A DNA stretch of 64,000 nucleotides, taken from Isoetes taiwanensis (lineage: Eukaryota > Streptophyta > Lycopodiopsida > Isoetales > Isoetaceae). Location: contig JAJEKV010000054.1 of NCBI GenBank assembly GCA_021234155.1, forward strand, positions 2,327,574-2,391,573. The letters are read 5' to 3'. Each line of letters opens with the position of its first letter. Position 1 is the stretch's first letter. The notes beneath the pieces are model-generated. The model saw nothing but the letters and a program-made list of their open reading frames with translations, was not told the origin of the DNA and made no database searches. Position numbers and translations under genes: made by a program. Positions 1-59,204 of the stretch are shown here, one piece after another.

Positions 1-1144
1 TATAGGCAAACTCGACCAGATAAATATAGTCAGCCCATTGTGATTGCTTACTCCACACATAGCTGCGTAGCATATCTTCTATAATGCGATTGGTACGCTC
101 TGTCTGACCATCCGTCTGAGGATGATATGCCGTGCTCATAGCAAGCTTGGTCTGAATGGTGGCAAAGAAATCTTTCCAGAATGCACTTACAAATTTGGGA
201 TCCCTATCGGAGACAATAACCTGTGGCATTCCGTGCAATCTGAAGATCTCCTTGGCAAATAACAGAGCAGTATCAAAGGCTGTATCCGTGTGACATGGCA
301 AGAAATGAGCCATTTTCGACAATTTGTCGACCACTACCATTAAGGCATTATATCCACGGAGAGTACGTGGAAGGCCCACAATGAAATCCATGGTTATCAC
401 TTCCCATTTAGCGTTGGGCACATCCAGAGGTTGCAACTCGCCTGGAATCCTTAACTGCTCAGCTTTGGTTTGCTGACACACCTGACACTGCTTAATGTAT
501 CTGGCAATATCCTTTTTCATAGAAGGCCAGAAATAGCTGGAGCGAATCTTAAAGTAGGTCTTCATAAAACCTGCGTGTCCAGCTATAGGGCTGTTGTGCG
601 TGTCGTGGAGGATTAGCTTACGCACTTCCAAAGTCTCAGGTACACACAACCTATCCTTGTAATATAACAAGCTGCCTCCTTTCTTATAGGAACGAAAAGC
701 TTCACGCTCCTTATCTGTGCGAGCTTCCTTGGCCAAACTATTCCAAACTTCAGAGAACTCAGGATCCGTGGCCAAGGTCTGTTCTATCTGCTTCCCAAAC
801 TCACTGGTGAGTGTAGAAACTGCATTACAATGGGTTCGGGTTACCAAGGGATGGCGTGACAACGCATCCGCAACCACATTGTGCTTTCCGGGTTTATACA
901 TAATCTCAAAATCATACTCCTCCAGAAATTCCATCCATCTTCTCTGACGGAGATTGAGATTTAGTTGGGTGGATAAATAACGGAGACTTTGATGATCCGT
1001 ATCCAACTGGAATCTTCTACCCAGAAGGTAGTGTCTCCATATTCGCAGGGCACGGACAATGGCTAACAATTCCTGATCATGGGTAGGGTATCGCTGCTCT
1101 GTCTCGTTCATTTTCTTTGAATCATAGGCAATAACCCTCCCCTC
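1..1144 (-). CDS. Element A RNase H and integrase (partial)
   Basis: An open minus-strand frame continues from the TAG at 1145-1147 to the window edge. RNase H comes first, with the run RALRIWRHYLLGR and the tether DALSRHP. It is followed by the integrase zinc finger (GHAGFMKTYF, then CQVCQQTK) and the catalytic core (WEVITMDFIVGLP with the first Asp, IVSDRDPKF with the second Asp, TDGQTERTNR next to the Glu). RNase H removes the RNA template during cDNA synthesis; integrase inserts the cDNA. The C-terminal part lies outside the window. It is the 3' end of the pol polyprotein and would be translated with RT if the TAG at 1145 were not present. Confidence 0.9.
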
Positions 1145-2209
1145 CTACATCAGGACTCCACCGGTGGCAATCTTACTGGCATCCGTGGCCACGAGTTTAT
1201 CCTTTTCAGGATCGGGCAACGTGAGAACTGGGGCTGACGTTAAGGCATCTTTAAGCTGCTGGAAACTTCCCTGAACTTTTGCCTTCCAGTGGTCCATCCA
1301 ATCCTTCACTTTCTCATGCTTTGTAAGATTTGTAAGAGGTGCTGCGATCTTTGCAAAATCCTTTACAAATTTCTGATAATATCCTGCTAGTCCTAAGAAA
1401 CTTCGGACCTCGGAAACATTTCCGGGAATAGGCCATTCCCTTACGGCCTCTATCTTTGCTGGATCTGTAGCAATTCCCTCTGCCGAAATGACATGGCCCA
1501 AATAATCGACCTTCGGAGTGGCAAACTTGCACTTAGAGAACTTGGCAAAGAGCTGATGACGTCTTAGCTTCTGCAGGGCCAATCTAAGATGTGCCTCATG
1601 CTCCTGTAGGGTCTAGATGAGAATGTCGTCAAAGAAAATAACAACAAAGTCATGCAAGTATTGTCGGAAGACATCGTTCATCAATCGCATGAAAGTTGCT
1701 GGGGCATTAGTTAATCCAAAAGGCATAACTGTAAACTCATAATGCCCATATCTAGTGCGAAAAGCAGATTTATGGATGTCCTCCTCTTTAATCCTTATCT
1801 GATGGTACCCGGAGCGTAGATCAATCTTTGAGAAATACTTAGCCCCTTGCAATTGATCCATTAGATCATCGGCTCTAGGCAAAGCATAGCGATTCTTGAT
1901 GGTATGCTTGTTGAGTTGCCGATAATCAATACACATCCTCAAGGAGCCATCCTTTTCTTATGAAAAGAATAGGAGCACCAAAAGCGAAACACTAGGGCCG
2001 AATGAAACCTAGGTTTAGTAACTCACGAAGTTGCTTCTTAAGCTCGCCAGTGCGGAGGACTCATGCGCAGACGGGGCCTTGCTGGTAGGCTTAGTACCTG
2101 GCTCTAAAGCTATCTCACATTCTACCCCTCTAAAAGGAGGAAGCTTCTGGATCTCATCTGGGAAAAGATCACCAAATTCTCGGAGAAGATTAGCAATCCC
2201 CTGTGGCAA
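1145..2209 (-). pseudogene. Element A reverse transcriptase, interrupted
   Basis: Ty3/gypsy reverse transcriptase. In reading order: LFPDEIQKLPPFRGVECEI before the RT core (about 2150), [16 protein letters not shown] (about 1930), the first catalytic Asp in [13 protein letters not shown] (about 1810), [16 protein letters not shown] (about 1710) and the active site FFDDIL (about 1620). It continues into the thumb/connection region with [10 protein letters not shown] and [12 protein letters not shown]. The frame is broken near 1950-2010 (frameshift), by a stop just after FFDDILI (about 1613) and by TAG at 1145-1147 before RNase H. All catalytic residues are still present, so decay is recent or partial. 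Confidence 0.9.
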
Positions 2210-2690: not shown

Positions 2691-4037
2691 GGTGGAAATG
2701 ACAACAGGTGACTTTCGGCATTGCCGGTTTCTATAGCCGCAAGGATATGGAGACGCGAGTGAATGTACTTTCGAGAGCCTCCTCCTCGGCGACGGGTTGT
2801 GTTGACTCAAGATCGTCCCAATCGAGGTCGGCCATGGCCGGTAGGCGTCTGGCGTGACATAAGGACAAGTGCATGAAGTGCGGGGACGATACACACTGTA
2901 GCATGCCTTATCTCGGCTGAGCTATTCTCGGGCCTCTTTAGGAATAGACTGTAAGAGGTTCCGAACTTCCTTGCCGACATTGTTCTGTTTATCGGCCGTG
3001 CTGAAGGTGACTTTCTTTTCCTAGCGGCCATAAGAGTTCTGCTGAGAGGGCCCCGGACTTGGTGAGCGGGGTTTATAAGGTGTGGACAGCCGTGGCTGCG
3101 AGTAAGGAGCAGGACGTGGATACTGGTTCTTTGGTGTGTCCTCCTCGAGGCTCAATGCTTTAGCCTCAGCCTCCGCAACTGATTTCAGGTCTATGGCCTT
3201 AACCATTCGTTTAATTGATGGGGCCAACCCTTCAATGTAACCCTCCACCGCCCTCTTCTCATTCATACCTGGTACATACAGCCTCAGGCGCATAAATTCA
3301 TCAGTGTAAGCCTGAACCGACATACCCTTTTGCTCTAACCTATAGAAGGTCTGAATTTGTTGGCATTTGTGCGCACGAGGCACATAATGCGACTTAAAAG
3401 CTTTCGCAAACTTCTTGAACTTGCATCTGCTTCTATCCAGATGCTTGGCTCTAGCATAGCCCTTCCACCAAATACGGGCAGCTCCTGTAAGGTTCGTGGT
3501 GGCAACCTTTCCTGTATCCTTTTCTGTCATGCCATAGGACTTCCCAAACTCCTTCATTTCGTCCAACCAGGACTCTGCATTCAGTCCGCCTCTAGATTTC
3601 CCATCAAACTGGGCCAGTTTCCTATTCTTACATATACTAGTTATGGCTGTATCAACCGTCTTGCGGTATTCCTTATCCCGGCGCTTTGCATGGTCACCAG
3701 CTGATACCGACGACTCAGAAGACACAGAGGTGGCTGATTGTGAGGAGGTGGCTCTATCCCTAGAGGAACTCCGACGACGTTTAGCGTGGGGCCTCCTCTG
3801 TGCAGGTACAGGGCTGGTTTCAGGTGGGGACGGCTGCTGTGTAGGTGGACTTGGCGGTGGCGGAGGTAACTCCGGTCCGTCTTCTTGTATGTGCTGGGGT
3901 GGATTGGCATGTAACACATACGCTTGCAACTCGCCTAATTGCCTCTTCATTAGCATAAGTTCCTGTTTAGGTGTTAGTCTGATGGCATTTGAGGGCGTCT
4001 GCCAAGCGGCGTTGCGTGCACCGTCTATATCCAGCAT
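2691..4037 (-). CDS. Element A gag
   Basis: Structural capsid protein of the retrotransposon. From the ATG at 4037 a frame of 338 residues runs to 3021. It contains a short helical segment (about residues 25-45), a proline-rich linker (55-80), a basic Arg/Ser-rich stretch (80-115, RPHAKRRRSSSRDRA) and the retrotransposon gag domain (about 140-290). That domain includes NAESWLDEMKEFG, GAARIWWKGYA, YRLEQKGMSVQAYTDEFMRL and VEGYIEGL. The zinc-knuckle part downstream of 3021 is frameshifted; only scattered Cys residues remain between about 2690 and 2960. Elements C and E have the matching gag domain with an acidic/serine variant of the RS stretch. The start is uncertain because a splice acceptor could lie just upstream. 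Confidence 0.85.
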
Positions 4038-4298
4038 ACAAAAGGTATAAGCCGACTTATGGTGACATAAGGTCTCACAACAATGCCATTTTGGATCAGT
4101 TAGAGAAAGAATACAAGAAAAAGTACAATGGCAAAGATCCTTATTACAGGTGAAAACAGTCATTCTATTATAGTTCGGTACAGTGATAGCAACACAAGTT
4201 GATACAAAGATATGATACAAGGACAGACATTATACATTGGAGATTTAAAGTTCAACTCACCTATAACCTCACAAGACACAAAACAAAAGAGACTGGGC

Positions 4299-4980: not shown

Positions 4981-6381
4981 TTAAGAGCTAGGTCCTGCCT
5001 CTTCATTCGTAGACCGAGGAGGTGGTGGCGGCGGTCGGTGTCGTAGCAGAGTCACCCCTGGGTCTACTGTGGCAGCCGCAATGGAAGCAACCTCTGGCGG
5101 ATAAGTAACAGCCAATGGGGCTGCCGTAAGGAGCTTCATGCTCATCCAGGGTGCAATGTCTTGCCCCAAGGCCGTCAGGGCAAGATCCCGTCGTACGAGT
5201 ACATAAGTGAACGTACGATAGGGAAGCTTCTTGTGCCCGGCCAATGTGGAGAGAGCACGGAGGGTCCACCAAGAAGCTTCGGCCTCCGACCCTAAGTCTC
5301 GGGCTATAAAAAGAACTTGCCCCTGCCGAAAAGCTGATAGGAAGAAACAAGTAAGGTGGTTTCCTAATACCTTCCCTTGCGGAGTCTCTGACGTGGCCAC
5401 CTCCTTGTCTATGTCCATAGGGACCTCTTCTTCCTTGAGTTCTTGCTGCTCTTCCTTCAGATGAACAGGATTATGGTATAGATCCTCTCCCTCCTCATCA
5501 GAATCGGAGGGAACCTCGACCATATTAATGTTTGGAACATGAGATCCCATAGCCGTAAAGGCGTCCGGTGAAGGCTGAGAGGGCGGGTCCTGCATCACTA
5601 GTTCCCGAAGCCGTAGCAAAGTTTCTGCTGGCTCTAGGGTCTCCTGGTGGAATTGGAGTACCTGCTGCACCTCAGGGGGAAGCTCAATAGGAGCGAAGTC
5701 GATGAAATCATCCATACAGTACTCCGCTAGCTCATAGAGCACATGGTCCTTACGCCGGTGCTTGAACCCGGCCACCATGTGATAGGTCCAGATGATGTCA
5801 TCCAAGAGAATATATTCTTGCCCTTGGTGATACACGACTGTTAGGGCGTCTAACCCTGACAAGCGTGCAGCTTGCTCCCGGCGTGGTGGCATCTCCTCTG
5901 CCAACTGCTTCCAGCGGGCGAAGTCCCCCATGCCTATATGCTCATCTTCTCCCTCCTCGAAAGATTCAGGAAGTTTGCCTTTCTCTGCCGGCAAAGTCTC
6001 ATCCTCAACATATTGATCCATGAGGATGGCTAGGGCGAAGGCGACTTCAAGATATTGTCGCCCCTGATGTTGTACAACGGGCAGGTGCTTGCCCCATCTG
6101 AGCTTTCCTTTCAGCACATTATACGCGTGGGTATCACCCCCTAACATATCCCAGACCACCTCCCGTTCTAGGTACAACTGGGGAGGATCCCCAAGAGGAA
6201 TACACAAAGGAAGCATCTCCTCTGTGTAAAACTCTAGGAATCCGGCATAGTCTGGGTGTCACTGCATATTGGTGATGAGATCAAGGCGCTGACATAGCAA
6301 GGGCCGCAACAGGTCGAAGGGCACTTGCGGATCCCAATGCTCTCCGTCTTGATACCATGCAAGAAGGTCGGTGGCTGCCAT
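4981..6381 (-). CDS. Element A ORF2, unknown accessory protein (~466 aa)
   Basis: The frame starts at ATG 6381 (MAATDLLAWYQDGEHWDP), passes one in-frame TGA near 6262 and stays open to 4981; the longest uninterrupted part is 411 residues from 6216. No family is recognised. The middle part has DALTVVYHQGQEYILLDDI and YELAEYCMDDFIDF. An acidic stretch (SDSDEEGED, then EEQQELKEEEVPMDID) precedes a C-terminal globular part (FRQGQVLFIARDLGSEAE, FTYVLVRRDLALTAL) and a proline-rich end (RPPPPPPRS). Elements C (35057-36611) and E (about 45498-46793) hold diverged counterparts in the same place. Retention in three elements argues for a real function, possibly with ORF1. The TGA is the only break. Confidence 0.7.
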
Positions 6382-6579: not shown

Positions 6580-7842
6580 CTAAGGATGCTCCCCCCCAAT
6601 CCTGCGGGCGATGGCTAAATCCTTAGGCATGATGGTGAGCCTCTTTGCGTGGATTGCGCAAAGATTGGCATCACCAAAAAGTGCCACTAGATAGGCCTCC
6701 GCAGCCTCTTGGAGTGCCAAAATGGCAAAAGTCTGGAAGCGGAGGTCAGTCTTGAACTCCTGGGCAATCTCCCGAACCAACCTCTAAAAGGGGAGCTTCT
6801 GTATCAGAAGTTGGGTCGACTTCTGAAACTTACGGATCTCCCGTAAGGCGACAGTGTTGGGTCGGTACCGATGGGGTTTCCTCTGTGGAGCAGGGTTGGG
6901 ACGCGGCCCCCTTTGTGCAGGTACAGTCTTGGCCCCAACAACTGGTCGGGACGCATCCACCCGCTCCTGCCTCCGATTGGAGCTCACGTTCTTCCCGAAA
7001 GCCCCGACATTCCTCAATTTTTCCTTGTATTGGCTGCCGGCCTTTCGGGCGACGGACTTCCTCTGGTGCTTCACCGTCGTGTGCTCTGTTGGTGTTGGGC
7101 CCTGCCCACTCCCGGATGCCCCTTCCCCTTGCGGGTTCGACTGGTCTTGCCGATCCTTCTCCTCCTTCTCCCGTTCTATCCTCTCCTGCTCTTCCCGGAA
7201 CTCTCGGGCTCTCCTAAGGTCTTCTTCAACCTGAGCATAATGTTGTGCTACACTGCGGCGAAGAAGTTCAGCGTGGTACCGGTTGGGCCGCTGGGCTATG
7301 TCAATCTGGATCGTCGTTAAGTAATCCAGACTGATATCAGGAATCGGGGCTCCCCACATGAAGCTCTGCGAAGCTTCATGCCATTGGTACGGGGGAAGTT
7401 CGATAGCCCGGCCATCAATAACGGCGACTCCATCCCCAAGGTACCGGTACTCCCTTCCTCGAGCCGCTGTATCGGCTCGCTCTATCTCCCTTTTGTCATC
7501 CTCCCTGGCCAAGTTTCTGATACGGTCGGCCTCATCCCTTATGTCCTCCTCCTCGGTGTGGCCTTCACATTCGGGAGGATAAAACTTTATTAACATCATG
7601 ACCAAGTCAGGTTGCTCGGCCATGGTGTAAGGAAGCTGGCGGAGGTTCAGTCGGACCAAGAACGGCTCCGAGAAATGATAGATTGGATAGGGGATCCTAT
7701 CGTTGTTATCAAATCTGTTGACCAACTCGTCTAGAAGTATGTCAATCAAAGCAGGGTCGGTAGCCATATTCCGAGCGATCAAAGCGTAGATCTGGGCTAT
7801 AGTAAGGGTAGTGGGGTCCGGAGCACTCTTGGTGTTGGCCAT
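6580..7842 (-). CDS. Element A ORF1: retrotransposon protein with C-terminal histone H3 fold
   Basis: The frame starts at ATG 7842 ([12 protein letters not shown]), the first coding region after the LTR. Residues 1-215 are unrecognised; about 185-235 is highly charged and probably coiled coil ([20 protein letters not shown]). About 240-320 is a basic, tail-like linker ([12 protein letters not shown]). From residue 321 it is plainly histone H3: [19 protein letters not shown], then [12 protein letters not shown], a TAG at 6784-6786 exactly where H3 has Gln, and onward to 6580 with [45 protein letters not shown] and ARRIGGEHP. The alphaN, alpha1, alpha2 and alpha3 segments have H3 lengths and loop 1 has no CENH3-type insertion. 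Total about 420 residues if the TAG is ignored. H3 identity is certain; its function in the element is inference. Confidence 0.92.
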
Positions 7843-8610
7843 GGCTGATCGCGCTGAGGTCTAGAGGGACAGGCGGTAGGGCGCTTGCTGGTAGGGAAGC
7901 GGCAATGAAGGCGCTAGGGTTAGCGAAAAGCTAGGGCGAAGGAACAAGGTCAAGTCTGGCGGCTATGGCGGGTGTCGGATCCGGCGGGCGAAGGCGATGA
8001 AGGCAAGGCGGAAATAAGAAAACTTTAACGGCCTGTTAACTTTTGAATTTTAAAATTTTTCTTATTAACTTTTTATTTCTTTATTAAAAAGATATTTATA
8101 CGGCAGAAATACGCGGGACATACGGTTGGGCGCCGACTGCATTCTACGCGCTCCCACCGCAACTGGGGGCCGACGAAAAGCAAGCGGCGCCCGGGTTGAC
8201 TTTTGGGCCCGCGTTGACTCGCGATGGTACGGTTGGGCGCCGACTGCATTTTTGGGTCTCCCACCTCGACTGCAAGGCGACAAAAATCAAGCGGCGTCCG
8301 AGTTGACTTTCGGGCCTTCCCTTGATCATTTTTCCGCCAGCGACGACTGTCCTAAGGTATTTGGGGTACGCCCGATCCAATGGAACCACTTTCTCCTTCA
8401 TTTAAATGACCTACAAGAATTTACAATTTTTCCAAACTTGGGGCCTCCAGTCGCCCTAACTTCTTTAAACCTGCAATTTCTTACTTTAACCTAACACAAA
8501 GCCAAGCATCAAAGAGGGCTAAGCAACACACTAGATTAGCCTCCTCCTAACTAACGAACTACGAGTTAGGGTTTGGCCAGTGCTATGATTTCGAGCAAAT
8601 CGAAATCACG
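7843..8610 (-). other. Element A 5' leader between primer site and ORF1
   Basis: About 770 bases of untranslated leader with no convincing frame. It holds a ~107-bp tandem duplication (8119-8332, listed separately) and GC-rich sequence near ORF1. Confidence 0.6.
8119..8332. repeat. 107-bp tandem duplication in element A leader
   Basis: TACGGTTGGGCGCCGACTGC occurs near 8120 and again near 8227. It is followed in both copies by similar sequence that includes AAGCGGCGYCCGRGTTGACT. The copies differ at scattered positions. It lies in the transcribed leader, upstream of the H3-containing ORF1. Confidence 0.8.
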
Positions 8611-8622
8611 GCTCTGATACCA
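8611..8622 (-). promoter_or_regulatory. Primer binding site (initiator tRNA-Met), element A
   Basis: On the minus strand this reads TGGTATCAGAGC, the classic plant primer site for initiator tRNA-Met, one base after the LTR end at 8624. It fixes the LTR border and the orientation of element A. Confidence 0.93.
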
Positions 8623-8623
8623 C

Positions 8624-10180
8624 TGTGACGCTCCCTGAATATATACGACCCCCGGTCGTATACATACGGGGACTTTCCCCTCCCAGGGCGACCATCTCGC
8701 CATGAGCAGGGCCCTCCGTCTGACCCAGGCCATCTACGTAGAGATGCTCGAGTGAAGGGCACGGAGGTGTCATTTGGCCCACGCCTTCGATGGGCTCCTA
8801 CGTCGCGGAAGCATGAATACAAGGGTTAGCACACAGCATAATATATATATAAATAACCACCACAAAGGGTGGCGCATCCATCCAAATACCAACGGCAAAG
8901 AATATGCATCTAAAACTAAGAAAACACCCCAAACCTCAGGGTCTACCCCGGCTCAGACTCCAGTGAGGATCGACTGACGAATAGCATAGAACATCGGCTA
9001 GGGTTGTCCACTCCATCCGCCCCTCCTGTGCACACTTTGCAGATGGGTCGATTCACGCTATGGCTTCGCTATAGCCTTCCGGAGACGCAGACTCAAGGTA
9101 TCACCCTTTTGAGCCTACTCCAGGGTTCATGACGCCCCGGTCCGATGAGGCAGGTCAAGGAAGTGTCCCCTTCCAGGATCACAGTGGTTCCATGGGTGAG
9201 CTAGAGGATACGTGCCGCATCAGTGACCCCCGCATCCGTACCCAACTTACTCACCCTAAATCTACTCAAAGTGCAAGATGCTCCATACGGATCACACCTC
9301 TACACCCAGGGAGTGTCAGACCCATACCCGGCCCTCTCCGTGACCGGCTATCAGGCCTAGCCCACTATAGGAGTCTCAGGAGCCTTTTATGTTCGTGCAA
9401 GACCCCACCCCCACTTCGCCACTGTGTCCCTTCTCTGGTGCTAAGCCAGACCATAGCATCTACGACCCGGTGGTCTCTTGTACACAGGCCGCATATAACG
9501 GGAATATTACGGGGCTCTATCTAGGAGCATACAGAGGTCTCTACCTCCCCTTTAAACCCCCGTTTAATGGAAGCTACCCAAATACTTCATAGATACATCA
9601 ATCATTCCTTAACAGAGTACCATTCATAATGAAATGTAATCCTACTTACCACAGAAGGGTTAATTGCAACAAAGGCAACAAGCAAAGAGTACTACAGTAC
9701 TATCTTACAAATCACAAGCTAAACTACTACTAACCCGTGTTTCGGCTAGAACCGTTATCGTGGGGTGCTTCCATAGTGCTACAAGTAGGGTGGCAGCAAC
9801 AGCTAGTGGTGGTTCAGTGATTTTGGTGAAGTCTGCAACAGTCCTTGGGCGCTCAGCTGCTCCTTGGGCGCTCAGCTGGTTCGATATTGGTTGATATGGG
9901 GGTGATGATCCACCTTAATGGATCCAATTAGTAATCACCATGCTGGCCAATCGAGTTTGGCCAGGAGGCGCTTTCTTAAACTATAATTAGCTTAATTGTC
10001 CTTCTTACTTATTAATTTCCTTAAACATAGGTTATTATCCTTAATGATTTAATTAACATAGCTAATGAAATCCCTTTTAGGTCAACCCCCTAGGTTACCA
10101 TACCCCATGGTGGCGTATCTATACTGGGTGACGTGTCAGTATATTTATACATATACCGTATAAATACTTGGAACGTCACA
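8624..10180 (-). repeat. 5' LTR of element A (1557 bp)
   Basis: Starts TGTGACGTTCC (minus strand, at 10180) and ends GGGAGCGTCACA at 8624, so the LTR has short inverted ends. Both ends carry stem-loops. At the 3' end the arms are TATACGACC / GGTCGTATA (8642-8662). At the 5' end an interrupted stem is built from AGTATTTATAC, with the outer GTGACG pairing CGTCAC. Plus-strand sequence resumes as element B integrase at 10181. No coding capacity is supported; frames inside it are incidental. Confidence 0.92.
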
Positions 10181-19682: not shown

Positions 19683-21188
19683 TTTTTTAACTTGTTGGCT
19701 TTGATGCAATGATATCTCATAATTGTCAATGTCTGTGTCCAGTCTTGTGGAGCCTTCCCCTTTAAGAAACATTAGATATTCTGTCACAATCAGAATATGG
19801 AGCATTAGAATCAATAACATTGAAGGAGGAGACAAATAAATTAAAATGGCCCCTGTATAGCCCTATGGAATTCCAGCAACTGTTGTATTTGTCTCCAAAT
19901 TTCCTTTTATGACATGTAGCAATAGCTTCAATGTCTAACTGAAAGTGCATTTTAATCCAGAAAATAGATAGAGGTTTAGAAGCATAAAGGATTCTATTTC
20001 TAGATTTCCAGATGTTCCACAAGGCAGTATGGACAAAAGTGTTAGCAAGAGTGTCACCTTGTTGCAGAAAATCGATAATGCTATTGATATTCTTGTTTTT
20101 AAGGTTTGAACCAAGCTTGTCTAAGAGCCAAGTCCAAAAGGGTCTTAACTTAAAACAAAGGAAGATATGCTCCAAAGTCTCGTCCTGTAGGCATCCAGAG
20201 AAACAGTAGATACATTGCATCTTTTAGACAATGATACCAAATTTGTGAGGCTTTTATGTGCAATCAACCAGACAAAGAAGCAGATTTTTGGAGTGCAATA
20301 AGAGTTTCAGACATTCTTAAAAACAGATAGAACTTGGGATTGATCTAAGGACCATTTCTGCATAGCTTTAACTGGAACATCAGCAACATTAATCAAGGAA
20401 TAAATTTCCTTGACCCTGTGGAATGTCTTACCATTTATAGAGCAACCAATCGCTTTATTGTAGTCATTGAATTTATTAAAAGGAGCCAGAATAGTCTTGA
20501 AATGAGCATAAATTTTCTTGTCACTGGAGGTACCTTTAAGCACAGATTACAAAGCAGTCCAAGTTATGAATGAGTTATTGCTCCATAAATCTTTTATAGC
20601 AGTGACTCCCTTGCTAGCCCATTTACTATAGGTTGGATGCTTAATGGCCACAATTTTAGAATTCTGATCAGAAAAGATTGGTGACCTGAACAGATTTGTG
20701 CTCATAGTAGCATCTGAAAGATTATTTCTTTGAAGCACAGGATGGGTTTTATTCCAAGCCATAATCAAATTTCTCATCATAGGGGAAGTATTAGGAGCAG
20801 GATGAATGTCAACAAAAGCAGATTCTGGAAGAGAATGCTTAAGAGAGGGATGTTTAGAGGGATAGGAAATATTTAGCCAGTATGCAATAAACTGAGAGGC
20901 AGGAGAGTTGTTTCCCATAATTGTTCTCCAAATGTATTTGCCTGCCAATGAACAAGCCTGAAGGTGAAGGTTTTTGCATCCTATACCTCCTAAGTTCTTA
21001 GGCCTAGAAATTGAGTTCCAGTTTACAAGGTGAGATCCATTCCAGATGAAATTTCGAATAATCTTCTCCAGATCAGAATAAATTGATTTAGTGGCAACAA
21101 GAGCAGAGGAGAAATAAACATGGGAAGAAGCAAGAATAGAATTTGCTACGATTGTCCTACCAGCAAAGGATAGACAATTCCTGTAGTT
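19683..21188 (-). pseudogene. LINE, 3' half: RT C-terminus and zf-RVT
   Basis: Minus strand. The frame from 21188 down (NYRNCLSFAGRTIVAN, then IWRTIMGNNSPASQF) is the thumb and following region of a plant non-LTR reverse transcriptase. A second block (20543 to 19762) ends in the zf-RVT zinc finger common to plant LINEs (CIYCFSGCLQDETLEHIFLCFKLRPFW). A short T run at 19684-19690 is the poly(A) tail on this strand. Frameshifts separate the blocks near 20545 and 20240. The upstream half is at 28544-29395; a DNA transposon lies between. Confidence 0.88.
21185..21188 (+). repeat. 4-bp target site duplication AGTT (left)
   Basis: AGTT flanks the DNA transposon here and at 28544-28547. Removing the element and one AGTT restores an uninterrupted LINE reading frame across the junction. 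Confidence 0.85.
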
Positions 21189-22004
21189 GGGTGCTTTTTT
21201 TATTGACCTACCCACCAGCGGCGCTCCGGCCCGGCTCGGCACCTATTTTCAGCTTTTTCGTGGCGTGAAGGGCGCCCTTCATCATTTTGAAGGGCGCCCT
21301 TCATCATTTTTTGAGGTGTGTGCGGGGCCTGCTTGGAAAAGTTCCCGCGAGGCCGAATTGATTAGGTGCGGCTAGGGATTTTCGAATCGTGATCATTTTG
21401 ATTATGATTTTGATTTTGAATTGAAAGTGTAATTGGGTTGGGAAGTTCGGTTCATTACGCTACTCTTAGGAATTCCGGCATCTAGCTATGGTATTTGAAG
21501 TCCCGTGAGTAAAATCCCTCTATTTCTCATGCTTTTTCTTTATCTCTGCGATATTGAACTAAAAAAGTTTGTTTGATGTTATCGAGGATTTTGCTTTTAT
21601 AAGGCGAGTATGAATTTTACACAAGCGAGAGGTTTGTGTAATGAAGGGAAAAGCCAAAGGATTTGAAGGCGAAGGATGTTTCGGCCAAGTGATTTTCTTG
21701 AAGTGGCGATTGCCCACCGAAAGGAAAGATAAATTTAAAATTTGTTAGGCCCGGTTAAGCCCATGCTTGTCTTTGCATGACCTGCTTTGGAAAGGATTTA
21801 TCGAGAAAAAGCAAGCCTACCAACAATGAGGTTAGGGTAACCTTTGCTCGAGCTTTTGCTTGGAGTAATACCCAACGAGCTTTGTCAACCCCTGGGCAAT
21901 TCAAAGTGAAGCTGGGCTAGTTTTTCTTTGCGGAAGCTTATCGAACATCGGCCTTGATTTCTAGGGAGAGACCAGCAGCCCTCTTTGTTTGAAATATATT
22001 TGTT

Positions 22005-30779: not shown

Positions 30780-32442
30780 TGTGACGTTCCAGGACAGTAT
30801 ACGGTCCCAGGACGTATACTGTACTGCCTCGTCATGCGTACACGCCACTCCGACTGACGTGTACGCTAACGTGTAGCCAGGTGGGTAGCCCTAGGGGGCA
30901 ACGTGCTAGGAATATGTGCAACTATTAATGTGCACATTTTCCAATGTACACATTAATGTGGGCACACATTTCCATGTGGACACTTGATGCCAAGTGGGCC
31001 ACACCCATAGGTGCAATTAATGTGCACATTTTCCAATGTACACATTAATGTGGGCACACATTTCCATGTGGGCACATTTTGCCACCTAGCCATTAAAGAC
31101 AAGTGGGCCCATTACCAATTATCCCACATGCCTAAAGGGGATAATTGGAAACCCTAGCCAACCCCTTGTCTATTAAGGGGGGAAACCCTAACTTGCCCAA
31201 TTTTTCGTTTCTAGGGTTTTGGAACTCTGTTTTGGCAGCCTCAACAGACCAAAACCGCCTCCCGAACTTTGCTGAGAGAATTGCAGATTAGTTTCCCTTG
31301 ATTCGGCGTTTTGCCGGGGATGGTCGAGCTCGGTGAGGAGGAGCCACTCAAGGATCAGGTATTTGGCCAATTAGATAGTCTAAACCCTAATTCAGTCCAT
31401 AGAATCGTAGGTTTAGCCTATTAAATTGCCCATAGCGACCTTCTAGATCTCTAGATACCAGCCTCTAACTAAAGAACCTAACTCTATGATGTAGATTAGA
31501 TATAGTTCTTTAGTTCTTACATGATGATATATGGATAATGTATCTCTATGAACTCCTTGTATCGGGAAGGGGGTAGAGACCTAAAAGCTTGGTAGTAGAT
31601 GCTCCTAGAGTAGCCTCTCTAGCACACTATAGATTCGACACATGTGTACAAGAACCACACTCGGTTGTGGGTGAAGGGGCAGGCTGGCTAAGAAGGAGGT
31701 TCATGTCGACTCTTGAGCGATCCCTCGGTGTGTAAGGCCTACCAGGGATCATTGTGACTGGGTCTAATGGCTCACCACTGAGTGCGGGTGAGGCATGGAC
31801 TCGACACCCGTGAAGTGGTGTACACTTTCCAGTGGGTTCAGTCGAATACGGGCAGTGGCCCTCTAGTCACCTTGAGTCGGCATGTAGATCTCGGAGGGAG
31901 TGATCCCTTCCTGCCCCATCGGGCCGAGAGGATGAAACCCAGGGAATAGCCCTTTTGGCTATGCCTCCCGTGGCTTCTGATCAGGTCCCAGAGCACTTTT
32001 CAGCCTACTCACGCAAAGTGTGCCTGAGGAGGGGCGGATGGAGTGGACAACCCTATGCCATGTTCATATGCCAGCCAAATCCATTGCCATGAATTCTGTC
32101 CGCAAGGAACTCTGGAGACCCAAGCCGTCAGTCATTCCCTTGAGTCTGAGCCCTGGGTAGAACTCCCCATATGTATTGTGCTCACCTTGTTATGCAGATG
32201 TGATGGACCACCCTTGAGGTGGATATGTGCTTATGTTATAACGACATGTATGTTTACGCTTCGCGACTAGGTAGGCCACGAGGGAGGCGGGGTAAAATGA
32301 CCCCTTCACTCTTCCCACTGGAACCAGTCACGGTTGCAGTGTTATGTGGAGGGCCCTGTATCGGCATGGAGCTGGTATGGGGGATGAACTCCTGTTTGTA
32401 TCACGGTGAGTGCACCGTATCACGAGTAGGGGGGCGTCCGCG
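30780..32442 (+). repeat. 5' LTR of element C (1663 bp)
   Basis: Starts TGTGACGTTCCAGG. A stem-loop near the start has arms CAGTATACG (30795-30803) and CGTATACTG (30813-30821), with the outer TGACG/CGTCA stem 30782-30786 and 30830-30834. A ~90-bp direct duplication (about 30927-30984 and 31017-31074, AATGTGCACATTTTCCAATG) lies within. It ends at 32442 in a degraded GGCGTCCGCG where the 3' LTR has GGACGTCACA. Confidence 0.92.
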
Positions 32443-33224: not shown

Positions 33225-34342
33225 ATGCGAGGATCAGATCGGGCGACCATCACGGAGATCATAGAGGACGGCCGTGGGACATCATGCATCAAATCCTCGA
33301 GGAGATCGCACGGGGAGGAAGGAAGGAGCGAGGAGCAAGAGGAAGCGGCGAGGGATCAAGCGGCCGAAGAGCAACACCGGGTGAGACCCACCTCACGGGG
33401 GAGGAGCAAGGAAGGGAAGAGCAAAGAACCGCCAACTCTTAGCCCCAGAAGAAGCAGATATTGCGCGCTTCATCGAAAGTATGAAGCCAAAGAGCGCCCG
33501 GGAGCAGAGGACGAAATCCGGAGGACGCGACCCAACCAGCACCCGGCCGAGCCAAAGAAGAGGAAGGCCAAAGCTATCAAAGCGTGCAAGAGAAAGGTTG
33601 TGAAGGTCGGAAGCTGAAGCGGTAGGGCCCGGCCATCAACGAACCATCAGGCGAAGAGACCCGCCTTCTACCGACGATTCGACGAGGATTACGCCCCCCA
33701 ACGCAGGGGCGAAGTTCTTCAAAACCCCACTGCGGAGAAGGAAGTCCCCGAAAGCAGGTGGCGAGGAACAAGACCAGTCGGGCAAAGAAGCCCCACCTTT
33801 TTCCGACGTGGGATAGGGTTAAAGCCCCGCGACCACAAAGGGAGGCGTACGTGATAGACCCGGTCAAGGTCTATCAGAAGAGGATCAGAGAGCATAACAC
33901 TTACATGGAGAAGTGGGAGGCATACAATGCCTATTATTAGGAGCACAGGGTGAGAATGATTGAAGGCGGACACCCGACAAGAAGCGAGACCTTGAAGCCG
34001 CCGCCACCCAGGCCCAAGCCTCCAAGAGCACCAGGGAAGAAGCGGTCCAACAGGAAAAAGTTGGAGGACAGAGCCCTCAAGGAGATCCGGCATTTCCAGA
34101 AGAGTTACGGACTCTTGATCCCCCGGGCACCGTTCCAACGCTTGGTCCGCGAAGTCATGCAGGAGTACAACACAGACATGCGCGTGACATATGAGATGCT
34201 GTTGTGCTTGCAGGAGGCAGCAGAAGCAAAAATAGTGCAGCATTTTGAGGATTCGACGGCCTGCACAGTGCACGCGAAGAGGGTCACCCTCATGAGGCAA
34301 GATATGTATCTTGCTAGGCACATCAAGGGAGAGCGCCCTTGA
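33225..34342 (+). pseudogene. Element C ORF1: diverged histone H3 fold at C-terminus, frame broken
   Basis: The frame opens near 33225 (MRGSDRATITEIIEDG) with a strongly charged region, ends at 33617, and continues in another frame from about 33758 (ARNKTSRAKKPHLFP). It passes a TAG at 33938-33940 and runs in the same frame to 34342. The last ~95 residues (from about 34052) follow histone H3 segment by segment: [80 protein letters not shown]. Compared with element A the domain is strongly diverged, yet the helix lengths and core residues are kept. TLMRQD and LARHIKG are closer to CENH3 wording than to canonical H3. A proline-rich linker ([13 protein letters not shown]) precedes the domain. 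Confidence 0.85.
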
Positions 34343-35056: not shown

Positions 35057-36611
35057 ATGGCCACTGCTGACTTCAGGATGATGGATGTAGCCGGTGCCCA
35101 TCTTTGCCGAGGCGGATGTCGACGACATCTTCCAAGTCTTTGGGAAAGAAATTGATATCCAAGCCACGCTAAATGCAACCCCAGCATATAGGCAAGTGCT
35201 AGCAGAGTTTCAAGCTAGGGTAGGACCCTCCCTTGTTCAGGTTCCCCCTTGCTTAGGATATTTTAGTTCCCGGCCATCCCTTCAAGCGGCCTTGACATGA
35301 TGTCCCCAACATCGCCAAGTACCTAACTAACAAGGCACAAAGGCAGCCCGAGACTACATGGTCACGACGACCAAACGGAACCAAGTATTTCTCTTACACG
35401 CCGCCCCTAGCTATGTTCTTAACCCATAGCGCGAAAACCCATTGGGGCAACCTCTATCCCTCTTGGATGGAGGTGGACCCCATAGCAGCTCAAGCGTAAG
35501 AGCGGATGCTTTTGCTTTCTTTATCAGCGAGAACAAGAAGAAAGAGAAGAAGAAGAGGAGTTCGGACGGCGAGGAGTACAGTCTTCGGAGCTCAACTCGC
35601 ATTTAAGAACGGGCGCCAAGCCGGGCAGGAGCTGATCAACTTCGAAGCGTTTAGCGGCTAAATATAGGAGAACATCGAGTTGCTCCCCCCACTTGGGCTA
35701 GGCATCACAAGCCTAGCCCTTATCATCATCAACGAGAGGAGTATCTACTCCTCGCGCGACATCCGAGAACCTTCCGAATGCGAGGAGAGGGAGCTCAGGT
35801 GGACGAACTGCTCCACCAACTGCGGGCTGGCAATGTAAGGCCCCCCGACATGGACGACTTCATTGTCAGGGAGTCTTAGACTTCCCACTTCAAGTCGTGG
35901 GGAAGCCTACATCTACACGAGGGAAGCGACTTCCGACATCGGGCATACTGAAAGGCATAAGGCAAGTCATGGGCGGAGACACGCCATCAAGAAGAAGAGT
36001 TCCTCGCCATTCAGGAACGGATGGGGATCAGAGGCAAGACCACTAGCATCCTGATGCCGAGTCCCTCAACACCACCTCCAACAAGAGGAGCAGGAATTGA
36101 CCTCAGGAGAGTCGACTCCACAATTGAAGATTACCGGGAGCTCACCGAGATCGAGGTCGACGACATGCCCGGGGGCATAGAGCGGGGGTCAAACAAGTGG
36201 GGAATCATCCGCGGACGCACAACGGCAGTCGCCTGAGGTACTACCCGCCCTTTGTTGCTAGATGGGAGAATAGCGGTAGTACACCGCAAATTCAGCCCCA
36301 GGGGCGAGGAAGGAGTGTTCATGCTGATTGCACTCTCAGGCTTCGGCAGGCATGCAAATGTCGACTATGCTGTCCTAGTCAAGAGGGCAATGGCACTCGA
36401 TCTCTTCGACTTCGCCATACCCCATCGACGGCAGGCGAGATTAGCCCGGCCGCATGGCCCTCACATCCGCCAGCGGGTGGAGGACTTGGCGAGAGCCTTG
36501 CAGGGCGGCTCGTCAGCAAGCGTCTTCAGGAACTTGGGTCATTCAGTAGGAACGGCCCAAGTTAAGAAGTTCCTTGAGGACAACCCATCTTACCGCCGAT
36601 TCCAAGACTAG
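35057..36611 (+). pseudogene. Element C ORF2, unknown accessory protein, frame broken
   Basis: Starts at ATG 35057 (MATADFRMMDVAG). It shifts frame early (EADVDDIFQVFGKEIDIQA near 35110) and several more times, and ends at 36611. The best-preserved part is the C-terminal ~115 residues (36252-36611): GRIAVVHRKFSPRGEEGVF, LIALSGFGRHANVDYAVLV, FRNLGHSVGTAQVKKFLED. This block is clearly shared with element E (46440-46793). The position matches ORF2 of element A, whose C-terminal block (RQGQVLFIARDLGS, FTYVLVRRDLALTAL) looks like a distant relative. No known family is recognised. Confidence 0.65.
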
Positions 36612-36974: not shown

Positions 36975-38010
36975 ATGAGCGGGCCGGTGGGCAATGCTCA
37001 ACTGCCACAAGCATCAGCTCGGAAAACAGGAAGGGACAAGAAGAGGAGCAAGAGAAGAAGATCCCCCAGCTCGGACTCCTCCGACTCAAGCTCAGAGTCA
37101 GACTCCGACTCCGAGGAAGAAGAAGATCAGGCCCAGGACCGAACAGACGCAAGGCAAAGGAACTTTGAAGAGGGAAGGCGGAGGAACACCCCCGGATGGG
37201 ATCTACAAAGGGACACTGGGGCCTCGACTACGGAAGAAGGTAGATTCGCGTTGGGCAATGTATGGAAGGCGGAATCGAAACAGTTCTCGGGGAAACAGGT
37301 CAGGATTAGAAGCGAGAGGCATGGCTGGGCCCGAAATGAGTGAGTACGGCAATGCTTATGGCATGAAGGATAAAGACAAAGGAAGAGTGGCAACGTGGCG
37401 AACTTGAAAGGAGCCATTTCGGATTTGGTGGAAGGGTTATGCAAAGGCACATGGCTTTAGCGTGGATGCTTGTAAGTTGAAAGTTTGCTAAAGCCTTCAA
37501 AAGCGCCATTACGTCGAGGAACATAAGTCTAGTATGATGCAAATAGAGTTCTGAGGTTCGCGGCAAGGCAACAAATCTGTCGAAGTATCTGGGAATTCAT
37601 GAGGCTGAGGTTGTATATGCCAAAATTGGGTGAGAAGCATGCAATGAGAAAGCTATATTGAGGGCTGAATGAGGAGATCCATAAGCTTGTGAGGGCAATA
37701 AACCCTAAGGCGATGTCGGAAGCGAGTCCAAGGCTATAAGCTTGCAAGGGGCGGGACCTGAGAATGGCAGGCGGAGGCGCCGGCATTTCGGGGACAAAGG
37801 CAAGGCGGCGAGAAGCTATAGCCCTAGAGCGGCGGCCAGTCCAGGTCCGGCTAGAGCCCCATATGGTGGCAACGGGAAGCGGCAGGAGAAAAGCGGTGTC
37901 CTTCAAGGACAAGCGAGGGGGTCAAACTACTCCAAAGCGGTGCGATCCTTTTTGCGGCGATGCCCAAGGAAAAGGCGGGAGTGCATAAGCGGCTCTGCAA
38001 AAGGTGCTTC
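36975..38010 (+). pseudogene. Element C gag, frame broken
   Basis: The N-terminal part is basic then Ser/acidic (KKRSKRRRSPSSDSSDS, SESDSDSEEEEDQ), matching the RS-like stretch of element A gag. The gag domain follows in broken frames (GNAYGMKDKDKGRVAT near 37350, WWKGYAKAHG near 37430). Downstream to about 38010 the frames are scattered. Forms the capsid in an active element. Confidence 0.75.
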
Positions 38011-42450: not shown

Positions 42451-44115
42451 TGTGGCGTTCGGGGCGGTATCGGTCCCGGGGCGCATATCTTGTATCTTTG
42501 CCTCGTCGCAGCGTACCGCGCCACTTTCCGTGGCATTGTGCGCTAGCGTGTAGCGGTGGGTAGCCCTAGGGGGCAACGTGCCAGGAATATGTGCAACTAT
42601 TAATGTGCACATTTTCCAATGTACACATTAATGTGGGCACACATTTCCATGTGGACACTTGATGCCAAGTGGGCCACACCCATAGGTGCAATTAATGTGC
42701 ACATTTTCCAATGTACACATTAATGTGGGCACACATTTCCATGTGGGCACATTTTGCCACCTACCCATTAAAGGCAAGTGGGCCCATTACCAATTATCCC
42801 ACATGCCTAAAGGGGATAATTGGAAACCCTAGCCAACCCCTTGTCTATTAGGGAGGGAAACCCTAACTTGCCCAATTTTTCGTTTCTAGGGTTTTGGAAC
42901 TCTGTTTTGGCTGCCTCAGCAGCCAAAACCGCCTCGAACTCTGCACGAGAGAATTGCAGATTAGTTTCCCTTGATTCGAGCGTTTCAGCAGGATGGTCGA
43001 GCTCAGGTCAGGAGGAGCCACTCAAGGATCAGGTATTTGGCCAATTAGATAGTCTAAACCCTAATTCAGTCATAGAATCAGTAGGTTTAGCCTATTAAAT
43101 TGCCCATAGCAGCCTTCTAGATCTCTAGATACCAGCCTCTAACTAAAGAACCTAACTCTATGATGTAGATTAGATATAGTTCTTTAGTTCTTCTGTACAA
43201 TGTATATGGATGATGTATCTCTATGAACTCCTTGTATCGGGAAGGGGGGTAGAGACCTAAAGCTTGGTAGTAGATGCTCCTAGAGTAGCCTCTCTAGCAC
43301 ACTATAGATTCGGCACTGTGTACAAGAACCACACGGTTGTGGGTGAAAGGGGCAGGCCCGGCTAAGAAGGAGGTTCATGTCCTGACTCTTGAACGATCCC
43401 TCTGGTGTGTAAGGCCTACCAGGGATCATTGTGACTAGGTCTAATGGCTCACCACTGAGTGCGGGTGAGGCATGGACTCGACACCCGTGAAGTGGTGTAC
43501 ACTTTCCAGTGGGTTCAGTCGAATACGGGCAGTGGCCCTCTAGTCACCTTGAGTCAGCATGTAGATCTCTGGAGGGAGTGATCCCTTCTGCCCCCCATCG
43601 GGCGGGAGGATGAAACCCAGGAATAGCCCTTTTGGCTATGCATCCGGCGGGCTACAGTCAGGTCCCGACACTTTTCAGCCTACTCTGCAAAGTGTGCACA
43701 GGAGGGGCGGATGGAGTGGACAACCCTATGCCATGTTCATATGCCAGCCAAATCCATTGCCATGAATTCTGTCTGCAAGGAACTCTGGAGACCCAAGCCG
43801 TCAGTCATTCCCTTGAGTCTGAGCCCTGGGTAGAACTCCCCATATGTATTGTGCTCACCTTGTTATGCAGATGTGATGGACCACCCTTCGAGGTGGATAT
43901 GTGCTTATGTTATATACTGACATGTATGTTTACGCTTCCGCAGCTAGGTAGGCCCTGAGGGAGATGGGGTAAAATGACCCCTTCACTCTTCCCACTGGAA
44001 CCAGTCACGGTTGCAGTGTTATGTGGAGGGCCCTGTATCGGCATGGAGCTGGTATGGGGGATGAACTCCTGTTTGTATACGGTGAGTGCACCGTATACGA
44101 GTAGGGGACGTCACA
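42451..44115 (+). repeat. 3' LTR of element C (1665 bp)
   Basis: Starts TGTGGCGTTCGGGG, ends GGGGACGTCACA. A perfect stem-loop GTATACGGTG-AGTG-CACCGTATAC lies at 44075-44098, close to the end. The ~90-bp internal duplication seen in the 5' LTR is present. Differences from the 5' LTR cluster at CAG/CTG contexts. Confidence 0.93.
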
Positions 44116-45405: not shown

Positions 45406-45418
45406 ATGGTATCAGAGC
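45406..45418 (+). promoter_or_regulatory. Primer binding site (initiator tRNA-Met), element E
   Basis: ATGGTATCAGAGC immediately after LTR end GACGTCACA. Perfect match to the plant initiator tRNA-Met primer site. Confidence 0.92.
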
Positions 45419-45497
45419 TATGATCTTGGTCGACCAAAATTGAGCACTGGCCAATTCCCGAATAGTACTAACAGTCTAGATCTTTAGACTTTGGGGA

Positions 45498-46793
45498 TGG
45501 CAACCCAAGTAGGAGCCTCGATTGTTTTTCCTCATATTAGATTAACAAGCTAAGCTAATAATAGTTAGCAAAAGTATAACAAAAAAACCTTGAAACCTGA
45601 AAAATTTTGGCCATCTGAGAGTGACCCCTCATAGAGTGCGCCTGGACCCTTAGCTAAAATTTAGCAAGGAACCTTCTACCCAGCCACTAAATATAGAGCC
45701 CCTGCCTCCACAGCAGAAGATCAACTACTCTTGGAGTATGAAGGCTCAGAACTGGAGGAGGAAGAAGAAGGCGGACACGACTACGACATCGAAGACCTCA
45801 TCGACGTCGACCCCATTCAAGAGCACTAGCAAGCAGGGCATGAACTTCAGGGCTTTGACAAAGGCCTGAGGACGACGAGGACAGTTCCTCCACTTGAGTA
45901 GGCATCACAAGCTTAACTCCCGTCATGATCGAAGGCCAGGCGTACCTCCTACTGCACAACATCAAGAATCTACACCTACATCAAGAATCTACTGTACTAC
46001 ATCAAGAATCAAGAGGCCAGGCGGATGAACTCCTACACCTCCTGCGCCAATAGCCCGACCTCGATGACTTCATCGACCAGGAGATGCAAGACTTCTCCAT
46101 CAGCATACGGAAAGCCCATACCTATACGGGGCAGTCATCATCTGATATCGAGGCAGAAGAAGAATTTATCGCCATCCAAGAACGGATGGACATCAGGGGC
46201 AAGACCACAAGTGTACCCCTGCCTAGTTCTTCATCAATGACGCCAGCCGGAATCGACAGAAGCGGGGTCAATCTGACCTCCTTCAGGTCCATGTTTCAGA
46301 TTACAAGGACCTGACAGCAGTACTGGTGGACAAGTACTCCAGGAGGCATAGGTCCAGCATCAGGACCGGAGATAAAGCAGGAGAGGCAGGACATGATAAG
46401 TCCCTCAGGTACTACCTTCCACTTCTCATCGACGAAAGGATAGCAGTGATCCATCGGCAGTTCAGCCCACGGGGAGAAGAACGAGTGTTCATGCTGATTG
46501 CCCTCTCAGGATTTGGTAGACATGCATGAAAGCCTCAAAACATCGGCCATGTCATACTAGTAAAGAGGACAATAGCCATGAACATCTTCGACTTCGCGGT
46601 CCCGTGCCGACGCCAGGGCAGATTAGCCGTCACTGCGGCCTACACATCGGACTGAAGAGTGGAAGAATTGGTAATAGCTTTGCAAGGTGGGACGCCCACC
46701 AATATTCTCAGAAATTTGGGACATACAATTGGTACAGCCCAAGTAAAGGTATTCTTGGAGGACCACCTTGTATATCAGAGATTCCAAGAATAG
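45498..46793 (+). pseudogene. Element E ORF2, unknown accessory protein, frame broken
   Basis: The probable start is ATG 45498 (MATQVGASIVFPH), only 80 bases after the primer site, so ORF1 is missing. Recognisable pieces: an acidic stretch near 45740 (YEGSELEEEEEGGHDYD, DLIDVDPIQ), AHTYTGQSSSDIEAEEEF (46111) and the conserved C-terminal block DERIAVIHRQFSPRGEERVF, LIALSGFGRHA, LRNLGHTIGTAQVKVFLED, ending at 46793. This block matches element C ORF2 closely. Several stops and frameshifts. Function unknown. Confidence 0.65.
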
Positions 46794-48165: not shown

Positions 48166-48724
48166 GATAGTAAACAAATAGTTAATAGTCAACGCAAGCC
48201 ACCAAGCACAATAGCACAATATCAAAAATTGAAAAGACAATCCATCTCGCGCTAGCTGTAAACAACAGACCACATGGAAGTTTAAGACAAGGGGTTAGCC
48301 GCCCTCATGCGCCAAGCATTAGAATGCCAACCGAATAAGAAAACACACGAGTAGGATGGAATAAGGATTCCAGAGATAATGACACAACAAATGAGAATAC
48401 TCGGATGCCACAGAGCTACGCCGAAAAAGAGAGAGAAAGATAGAAATAGTCTAGGACCAACCGCGGGGGTCTGCCCCTAGGTGCCCTCTAGAATAGTAAA
48501 CAAATAGTTAATAGTCAACACAAGCCACCAAGCACAATAGCACAATATTAAAAATTGAAAAGACAATTCATCTCACACCAGCTGTAAACAAACAGACCAC
48601 ATGGAAGTTTAAGACAAGGGGTTAGCCGCCCTCATGGGCCAAGCATTAGAATGCCAACCGAATCAGAAAACACACGAGTAGGACGGAATAAGGATTCCAG
48701 AGATAATGACACAATAATGAGAAA
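48166..48724. repeat. 327-bp tandem duplication
   Basis: 48166-48397 (ATAGTAAACAAATAGTTAAT to AGATAATGACACAA) is repeated at 48493-48724 with few changes, period 327. Confidence 0.9.
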
Positions 48725-48740
48725 TGACGCACGTAGCTTT

Positions 48741-48882
<142 letters not shown>

Positions 48883-49821
48883 CGGGGGGTCTGCCCCTAG
48901 GTGCCCTCTAGAAGCGACAAGTGCTATGCTGGGAAATTGCAAAGGCCACCAGCCACAAAGATATAGAAGAGAAGAGTCAATCCAGCTCTCACTAGGTGGA
49001 ACGAGAAGAAATCAAAAGATGTTAAGATGAGCCGACACCAGGTGACTAGACTCAGAGGAGGGAGAGAGGGAAACTCTAGAACCAACAGAATTCAGCTCAG
49101 AGGAAACGCCGATGAGGAATGCTAGCAGGCAACCATAGTAGACAGAGCCAAAGAAAACCTGCGCCATAGAAGGCTCAGGCTATAGATAAATCTGACACCC
49201 AAAATGGCGTGACGCCAAAACAGACGTCCCTTTCCCCAGAATGATGGTTCTCTTCTATATAAGAAGAGCACAATGGCATTCTCAGGGGATAACATGTCAA
49301 GAACGGAAGTCGAAGCTTGGTTAGACGAGATGAGAAAGTATGGGAACGCTAATGGCATGAAAGACAAGGACAAGGGCAGGGTAGCAATAGCCAACCTCAA
49401 AGGAGCGGCCAGAATTTGGTGGAAAGGCTAAGCCAAGGCCCATGGATTGAGCAGGGACAACTGCAGATTCAAGTAAGTTTTCCAAGGTATTTAAGCGTCG
49501 TCATTACAGCTTGGAGCAGGGAAATAAGATGGTGTAGAAGTACATCGAAGAGTTTATGAGACTAAGGTTGTATTGTGCCAAAGTTGAGCGAACGACACGC
49601 AGTGGAGGGTATATTGAGGGCTTGAATGAGAAAATTAAGAATCAACCCCAGAACAGTGTCAAAAGCAGAGTCCAAGGTCGTGAGCCTACAGGGAGCCAGG
49701 GATAGGTTCAATACACTGTACGTTTTATACAGAATACATATGAATTGTATGATACGGCACATATTTGTCGTATAAAACGTAAAAAATACGGAAAAAAAAA
49801 AATCGGCGTCGGAAGATTTTT

Positions 49822-58079: not shown

Positions 58080-58800
58080 TTTGTTGAAAACATCAGTTTT
58101 GGTAGGTCTACATGTCACTGTTTTCAAAAGAATCCTACATGTGGATTTGTGGAGGTATGGTTTTGTTCGATAATGGTGTTCTTTTTTCGGTGGACTAAAA
58201 CATCCTTTCGTTGTTTTTTGTAGTTTCTTCTATTGTGACATGTCATTTTATAATACAATCCACTGTAGGAAAAGAATACTTGAATTTCTACATGTCTAAT
58301 AATTCTATTGTCACATGTCTTTATAGATGTAGGAAAGAATATTTGATTCTCTACATGTCCTATACTTCCATTCACATGTCTTTATAGTAGTAGGACCAAG
58401 TACTTTATTTGCTAAGGCATTGTAGGAAAGAATACATGAATTATGACATGTGTAATACTTCTATTGTCACATGTCTTTATAATTAGGAAAGAATACTTGA
58501 TTCTCTACATGTCATATGCTTACATGTCACATGTCTTTATAGTAGTAGGACGTAGTACTTTTATTTGCTAAGGCATTGTAGGAAAGAATACATGAATTAC
58601 GACATGTGTAATACTTCTATTGTCACATGTCTTTATAGAAGTAGGAAAGAATACTTGATTCTCTACATGTCCTATCCTTTCATATCACGGTGTCTTTATA
58701 GTGGTAGGACAGAGTACTTGATTTGTTACATGTGATGCGTGCACGATCACATGTCCTTATACTAGTATTCCATGTAAGACAAGTTACTTCAATTACTTAA
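58080..58800. repeat. ~60-bp tandem repeat, TAGGAAAGAATACTTGA type
   Basis: GTAGGAAAGAATACTTGA, CTACATGTC and TCACATGTCTTTATAG alternate every 55-65 bases from about 58255 to 58745. A longer period of about 180 bases is visible because phrases such as GCTAAGGCATTGTAGGAAAG recur (58410, 58570). Non-coding. Confidence 0.8.
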
Positions 58801-59146
<346 letters not shown>

Positions 59147-59204
59147 CTTTTTTATGCCTCAAATCCATTTTTTCAGCATATGCACATGATCTCAGGTCCC
59201 AATC

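Follow-up and report, generated by a model that had tools for sequence, protein, structure and literature searches.

Histone H3 folds upstream of gag in two diverged Ty3/gypsy LTR elements of Isoetes taiwanensis

Analysis of 64,000 nucleotides of Isoetes taiwanensis DNA (the whole stretch is referred to here as the window) revealed that ORF1 of an LTR element, designated element A, ends in a histone H3 fold, with chance ruled out as an explanation, and that a diverged element, designated element B, carries a second H3 fold in the same slot between the 5' LTR/leader and gag. H3 was present in two of the three elements whose pre-gag region is visible in the window (elements A and B, but not element E). 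Judging from the pattern of substitutions, the H3-like gene looks to have been kept by selection in both elements, which hints that an element-encoded histone may serve elements of this kind in coping with host chromatin.

Most of element A lies on the minus strand of the window, the left edge of which cuts off its pol (Table 1). The element shows the Ty3/gypsy LTR order, with one LTR, a primer-like site, gag, and RNase H followed by integrase, and its pol frame contains several in-frame stops. The motif adjoining the LTR is presumably an initiator-Met type of primer site; one of the same kind follows the LTR in element E, and that of element B is one letter shorter. The first-pass annotation had placed ORF1 directly after the LTR and primer site and in the order of gag-pol. 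ORF1 is indeed on the same strand and precedes gag, but a leader of ∼770 nt separates the LTR and primer-like site from its ATG, and an additional ORF (ORF2) lies between ORF1 and gag. ORF2 gave no match in Pfam and was weakly similar to the ORF2-like stretches of elements B and E. The leader of element A includes an 89-bp direct repeat (8121 to 8209 and 8228 to 8316, 82% identical). To the right of the LTR, from 10181, lies the integrase region of element D, which is on the plus strand, so that element A represents a nested insertion into that region at 10180/10181. The earlier label of chromovirus stays putative for element A, whose integrase runs off the window edge, a chromodomain (PF00385, 1.2e-09) having been matched in the relative D only; the corresponding stretch of element B contains a stop, and no Pfam match was obtained with the pieces of it that were tried.

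Table 1. Coordinates of the features of elements A, B, and E in the window
Feature	Position	Strand	Remarks
5' LTR of element A	8624..10180	-	Terminal motifs TGTGACGTTCC ... GACG/GCGTCACA; partner LTR beyond the window
Primer-binding-site-like motif GTGGTATCAGAGC of element A	8611..8623	-	Adjoins LTR end
ORF1 of element A	6580..7842	-	ATG at 7842; ∼320 residues without Pfam match, then histone H3 fold
H3 fold of element A	6580..6879	-	KPHRYRP (residue 322) to final stop; two pieces around 6786-6784
ORF2 of element A	4981..6216	-	411 codons, between ORF1 and gag
gag ORF of element A	3021..4220	-	Retrotrans_gag 9.4e-16, Ty3_capsid 2e-15
RT end, RNase H, and integrase pieces of element A	2..1612	-	PF17919, PF17917, PF17921, PF00665; leave the window
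5' LTR of element B	30780..32441	+	3' boundary set by eye, approximate; preceded by GCACA
Open frame of element B	33941..34339	+	133 codons; ends in uninterrupted H3 fold (34052-34339)
ORF2-like stretch of element B	36237..36608	+	61% identical to that of element E over 124 residues; no Pfam match
gag remnant of element B	37054..37724	+	tblastn with gag of element A, two pieces, 5.3e-19
3' LTR of element B	42451..44115	+	GCACA directly after
Leader and ORF2-like stretch of element E	45406..46790	+	Matches to element B; no H3 between them

The presence of the H3 fold in ORF1 of element A, upstream of gag, was borne out by profile and structure database searches, with small corrections to its outline. 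It begins at residue 322 rather than at residue 321 as annotated before, and the frame closes with the terminal stop at codon 421 (6582-6580). The fold had been described as continuous through all helices; both of its pieces match H3, but an in-frame TAG at codon 353 (6786-6784) that had gone unmentioned splits the H3 part, indicating that this copy is broken. The Histone profile PF00125 matched residues 306 to 352 at 7.1e-07 and the 65-residue piece after the stop at 1.9e-24. Considering the Pfam cut-off of 26.4 bits for this profile, the scores of the two pieces (30 and 86.7 bits) and of the frame of element B (99.3 bits) were all above it, and the H3 similarity on which the first-pass annotation had staked its call thus survived the profile search. 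Moreover, the top PDB matches of the two pieces were histone H3 chains (4.7e-12 and 6.9e-30). Identity to the solved H3.3 7ux9_E was 79/96 residues for the fold of element A and 52/97 for that of element B, and both folds could be aligned with their best solved relatives (H3) without gaps. In comparison with plant H3.3, 71 of 88 residues were identical in element A (the CENH3 and most H3 reference sequences used in this study are provisional).

The second H3, which is absent from the first-pass annotation, was detected by tblastn of the element A proteins on the window (34037 to 34333, plus strand), 27 kb from the first. Element B shows the hallmarks of a Ty3/gypsy element, namely, two LTRs, which are 93.4% identical, and a 5-bp target-site duplication (GCACA) on both sides. 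Its H3 frame matched PF00125 at 2.4e-28 and H3.3 in PDB at 1.5e-27; at a cut-off of 1e-30, neither this frame nor the provisional Arabidopsis CENH3 matched PDB. The frame over the H3 fold is uninterrupted in element B, unlike in element A, but it is preceded by an in-frame stop, and stops and frame breaks occur further upstream; a fully intact ORF1 is found in neither copy within the window. No introns interrupt either H3. AlphaFold models built from single sequences without an alignment were poor (pLDDT of 50 and 59, the latter for element B), and Foldseek with the element B model returned no match at an E value of 0.001 or better. Given the strong sequence profiles, this result was read as a failure of the model, although it lends no support to the fold.

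Element E has an LTR end, a primer motif, and a leader of the same kind as those of elements B and A, and its ORF2-like stretch lies at 46419 to 46790, with a leader-to-ORF2 distance ∼2.8 kb shorter than that in element B. A filter-free hmmsearch with a model of both folds, covering six-frame segments of at least 15 residues over the whole window, recovered only the frame of element B and the two pieces of element A, with none in element E. The first-pass annotation had reasoned that an H3 confined to a single copy, with ragged junctions, would mean a one-off gene capture. The diverged element B also carries it within the window, although element E does not. In elements C and D, the pre-gag region was not recognized in the window. 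Element C (minus strand, 58052 to 53658) forms another nested insertion at 53657/53658, inside the integrase region of element E. Elsewhere in the window, a minus-strand ORF of 231 codons (20547 to 21242) presumably encodes, judging by eye, the end portion of a LINE protein of the L1 type, and tandem arrays occur in 8-bp steps (48658 to 48928 and 58969 to 59181), in 19-bp steps (59441 to 60539), and as longer repeats (58271 to 58746). Scans of the window for tRNA and Rfam families found none.

To assess constraint on the histone, the two folds were compared with each other and with plant H3.3. Elements A and B share 48 of 87 comparable residues, with codon differences at positions 1, 2, and 3 numbering 39, 24, and 52 of 88 (pN of 0.34 and a saturated pS of 0.75). 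When neutral evolution with the same amount of nucleotide change was simulated 2,000 times, at most 36 residues were identical, far below the observed 48, so the H3 is not what remains of a single recent capture. Since separate captures would place part of this constraint on host genes, each element was also tested alone against the provisional plant H3.3. The 16 changes in element A had a mean BLOSUM62 score of 0.69 (neutral, -0.42; P = 0.0045), and the 37 changes in element B had a mean of 0.14 (neutral, -0.51; P = 0.0075), the latter figure also including any changes that predate capture and arose in a host CENH3. The stop-free fold of element B is weak evidence when taken alone (P = 0.13 and 0.065 in two tests).

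Imitation of the H3 tail by the linker ahead of the fold, as suggested previously, was not borne out. Alignment of the element A linker with the H3 tail scored 31, compared with a mean of 28.0 for shuffled linkers (P = 0.27), and the linker of element B likewise gave no significant alignment (P = 0.57); a P value of 0.04, obtained for the element A linker plus the KPHRYR stretch, was carried by that stretch of the fold start. In the absence of a significant alignment with the tail bearing K4, K9, and K27, both proteins are regarded as H3-fold proteins rather than ordinary H3. Residues C110, H113, R116, D123, L126, and I130 are taken here to form the H3-H3' interface; C110, H113, R116, D123, and I130 are unchanged in both elements, and L126 is replaced by I in element A. 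These unchanged residues are compatible with, rather than a demonstration of, entry into nucleosomes. In addition, K56, K115, and T118 are retained in both, while R63 is altered in both and K79 and K122 in element B only, so that DNA contacts may be weaker. Within residues 86 to 90, which presumably decide chaperone choice, only position 90 is unaltered in the two elements; position 88 differs in element B alone, and positions 86, 87, and 89 differ in both. This residue pattern would fit retained pairing with H4 combined with handling unlike that of host H3.

The explanation that we tentatively prefer as a whole, and consider a good possibility if somewhat short of probable, is a Ty3/gypsy LTR lineage whose accessory ORF1, placed after the 5' leader and ahead of ORF2-gag, encodes a C-terminal H3 fold. 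The ORF1 protein would pair with host H4 and might become part of nucleosomes or of H3-H4 tetramers, either on the DNA of the element or at target sites; since a long unrelated part stands in place of the ordinary H3 tail, the usual K9 mark could not be set on these nucleosomes. In plants, H3K9me2 and CHG/CHH methylation strengthen one another and silence transposons (PMC9033089), so that nucleosomes lacking the tail could weaken this loop of H3K9me2 and non-CG DNA methylation. The occurrence of H3 in the same slot of elements A and B, the bounding of element B by LTRs and its target-site duplication, the constraint between the two folds, the conservative changes in each, the key residues kept, the lack of a tail, and the residues that element B shares with CENH3 (described below) are consistent with this explanation. 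Against it stand the lack of a wholly intact ORF1 in either copy, the absence of H3 from element E, the changes at R63, K79, and K122, the weakness of the missing stops in the element B fold as evidence, the provisional nature of the CENH3 references, and an outcome of tree comparison (AU, 0.073; see below), as well as the N-terminal parts of ORF1, between which only weak, low-complexity matches and no convincing homology were found. Entry of the ORF1-H3 protein into chromatin, if real, would mean that a transposon itself alters the composition of nucleosomes instead of only reading histone marks. Escape from H3K9-based silencing and the partner of type II chromodomains would then become directly testable, and the evolution of transposons would be linked with that of centromeric histones.

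With regard to the origin of the histones, two captures, or the replacement of one histone by another, are tentatively favored over a single capture because element B shows CENH3-like sharing and element A no such excess. Among the 37 changed residues of element B, 11 recur in the provisional Arabidopsis CENH3 (2.2 expected with BLOSUM62 as the model; 200,000 draws never reached 11), 5 in rice CENH3 (1.6 expected; P = 0.016), and 4 in human CENP-A (2.0 expected; P = 0.13); in a plain permutation, the values were 0/5000 for Arabidopsis and P = 0.053 for rice. The corresponding counts for the 16 derived residues of element A were 2, 2, and 1, with no excess (2 of 16 where 1.2 were expected). In a tree of the kind called for by the first-pass annotation, built with provisional H3 and CENH3 references, element B joined the three plant CENH3s (maximum likelihood, 86% UFBoot), but a clade of A and B, at a cost of 7.4 log units, was not rejected (AU, 0.073). 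By plain identity, element B was slightly closer to plant H3.3 (51/88) than to Arabidopsis CENH3 (47/88). A longer loop 1 is a criterion for CENH3; this loop has the length of H3 in both elements, with no gaps against H3, whereas the provisional CENH3 and CENP-A sequences require two gap columns. A single ancestral capture of H3, followed by loss in element E and by convergence of element B on CENH3-like residues, is nevertheless a serious contender with a probability a little under even. The shared slot and the unrejected A+B clade speak for it, and so does the coincidence of changed sites, 12 of the 16 in element A being also changed in element B (6.8 expected; P = 0.004). RT nucleotide identities over 1,497 columns (0.60 for A-B, 0.60 for A-E, and 0.72 for B-E) also accord with it; under a clock they would make element A branch first, in which case element E would have lost its H3. 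Conversely, elements A and B have only two identical derived residues in common (1.5 expected), and the grouping of element B with plant CENH3s points away from a single capture. A broader version of the preferred explanation, which we regard as rather doubtful, is that the LTR lineage repeatedly took up different H3-family histones (H3.3-like in element A and CENH3-like in element B) as nucleosome subunits of the element with exchanged tails, thereby escaping H3K9 methylation or settling in chosen chromatin, e.g., centromeres.

The main functional alternative to an antisilencing mechanism is targeting, in which the element histone would be deposited in chosen chromatin (perhaps centromeric if CENH3-like) and the integrase complex, possibly via a chromodomain, would integrate there. 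We consider it unlikely. It draws on the CENH3-like residues of element B and on the chromodomain of the relative D, from which, judging by eye, the first and the last aromatic residue of the cage are missing, as in the type II chromodomains, whose partner is given as unknown (PMC6317226); the histone of element A is not CENH3-like, though, and the H3-length loop 1 of element B differs from that of the provisional CENH3s. A passenger role, in which host H3 transcripts were caught during reverse transcription and ride along as in fungal hAT transposons, their conservation being inherited from the host gene, seems to us somewhat improbable. Capture of host genes, including H3, by transposons is known (PMC6710886), the H3 of both elements is intronless, element E manages without H3, and both ORF1 copies are broken, all of which speaks for a passenger. 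Such a role fits poorly with the occupation of the same slot twice, with departures from H3.3 that in either copy are milder than expected of neutral change, and with the fold of element B, whose frame 37 changes over 88 sites have left open. Histones of giant viruses compact viral DNA, and the histone fold might likewise compact element cDNA or RNA in particles, as the proximity of the histone to gag and the basic linkers ahead of the fold (net charge of +12 in element A and +7 in element B) could suggest. No fused H4, H2A, or H2B partner was seen among the ORFs examined, and this role appears very unlikely.

Elements A and B can be classed as host-gene capture by a mobile element, since H3 capture is known in fungal hAT transposons. 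Viral and prokaryotic contigs were also searched. In IMG/VR, ORF1 of element A gave 14 pattern matches, of which 1 was confirmed, on an unrelated viral contig (L001); none of 25 was confirmed with the H3 frame of element B, ORF2 of element A had no pattern match, and none of 5 was confirmed with its RNase H-integrase, for which 0 of 32 were also confirmed among prokaryotic genome contigs. The match on L001 covers only query residues 321 to 352 (58%) and falls to a 356-aa protein (379 to 1449) with an H3-like stretch; a 90-aa ORF next to it (41 to 313) is histone-like by eye, and we take the contig to resemble giant-virus histone fusions. It shares with elements A and B an H3-like fold in a noncellular genome, but by eye no LTR element genes occur among its six listed ORFs. 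Among the matches listed in the open literature, outside which most subscription papers lie, none described a histone gene in an LTR element.

The closest precedent met is that of the Dothideomycete hAT DNA transposons, which carry captured, intronless H3-like copies amplified in the genome (PMC6710886). Like elements A and B, they are mobile elements with a captured intronless H3-like sequence; they differ in being DNA transposons, most copies of which are truncated and damaged by repeat-induced mutation, and in that no constant fusion to an accessory ORF ahead of gag is described for them. With the plant chromoviruses (PMC6317226), the elements of the window share a Ty3-type capsid in Gag, RT, RNase H, and integrase, and the relative D shares the chromodomain, whereas elements A and B add an H3-bearing ORF1 and ORF2 upstream of gag. 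The main text of that survey uses the word histone once, with regard to chromodomains, and the terms tried for extra ORFs are absent from it. The likeness to the host H3.3 and CENH3 (provisional sequences) lies in the identity of element A to the former (71/88) and in the derived residues shared by element B with Arabidopsis CENH3 (11/37). Unlike these host proteins, the histones of elements A and B are encoded in an LTR element and lack the standard tail, and that of element B has a loop 1 of H3 length. What is unusual is the slot shared by two diverged elements, the constraint on the histone, and the possible use of two types of H3.
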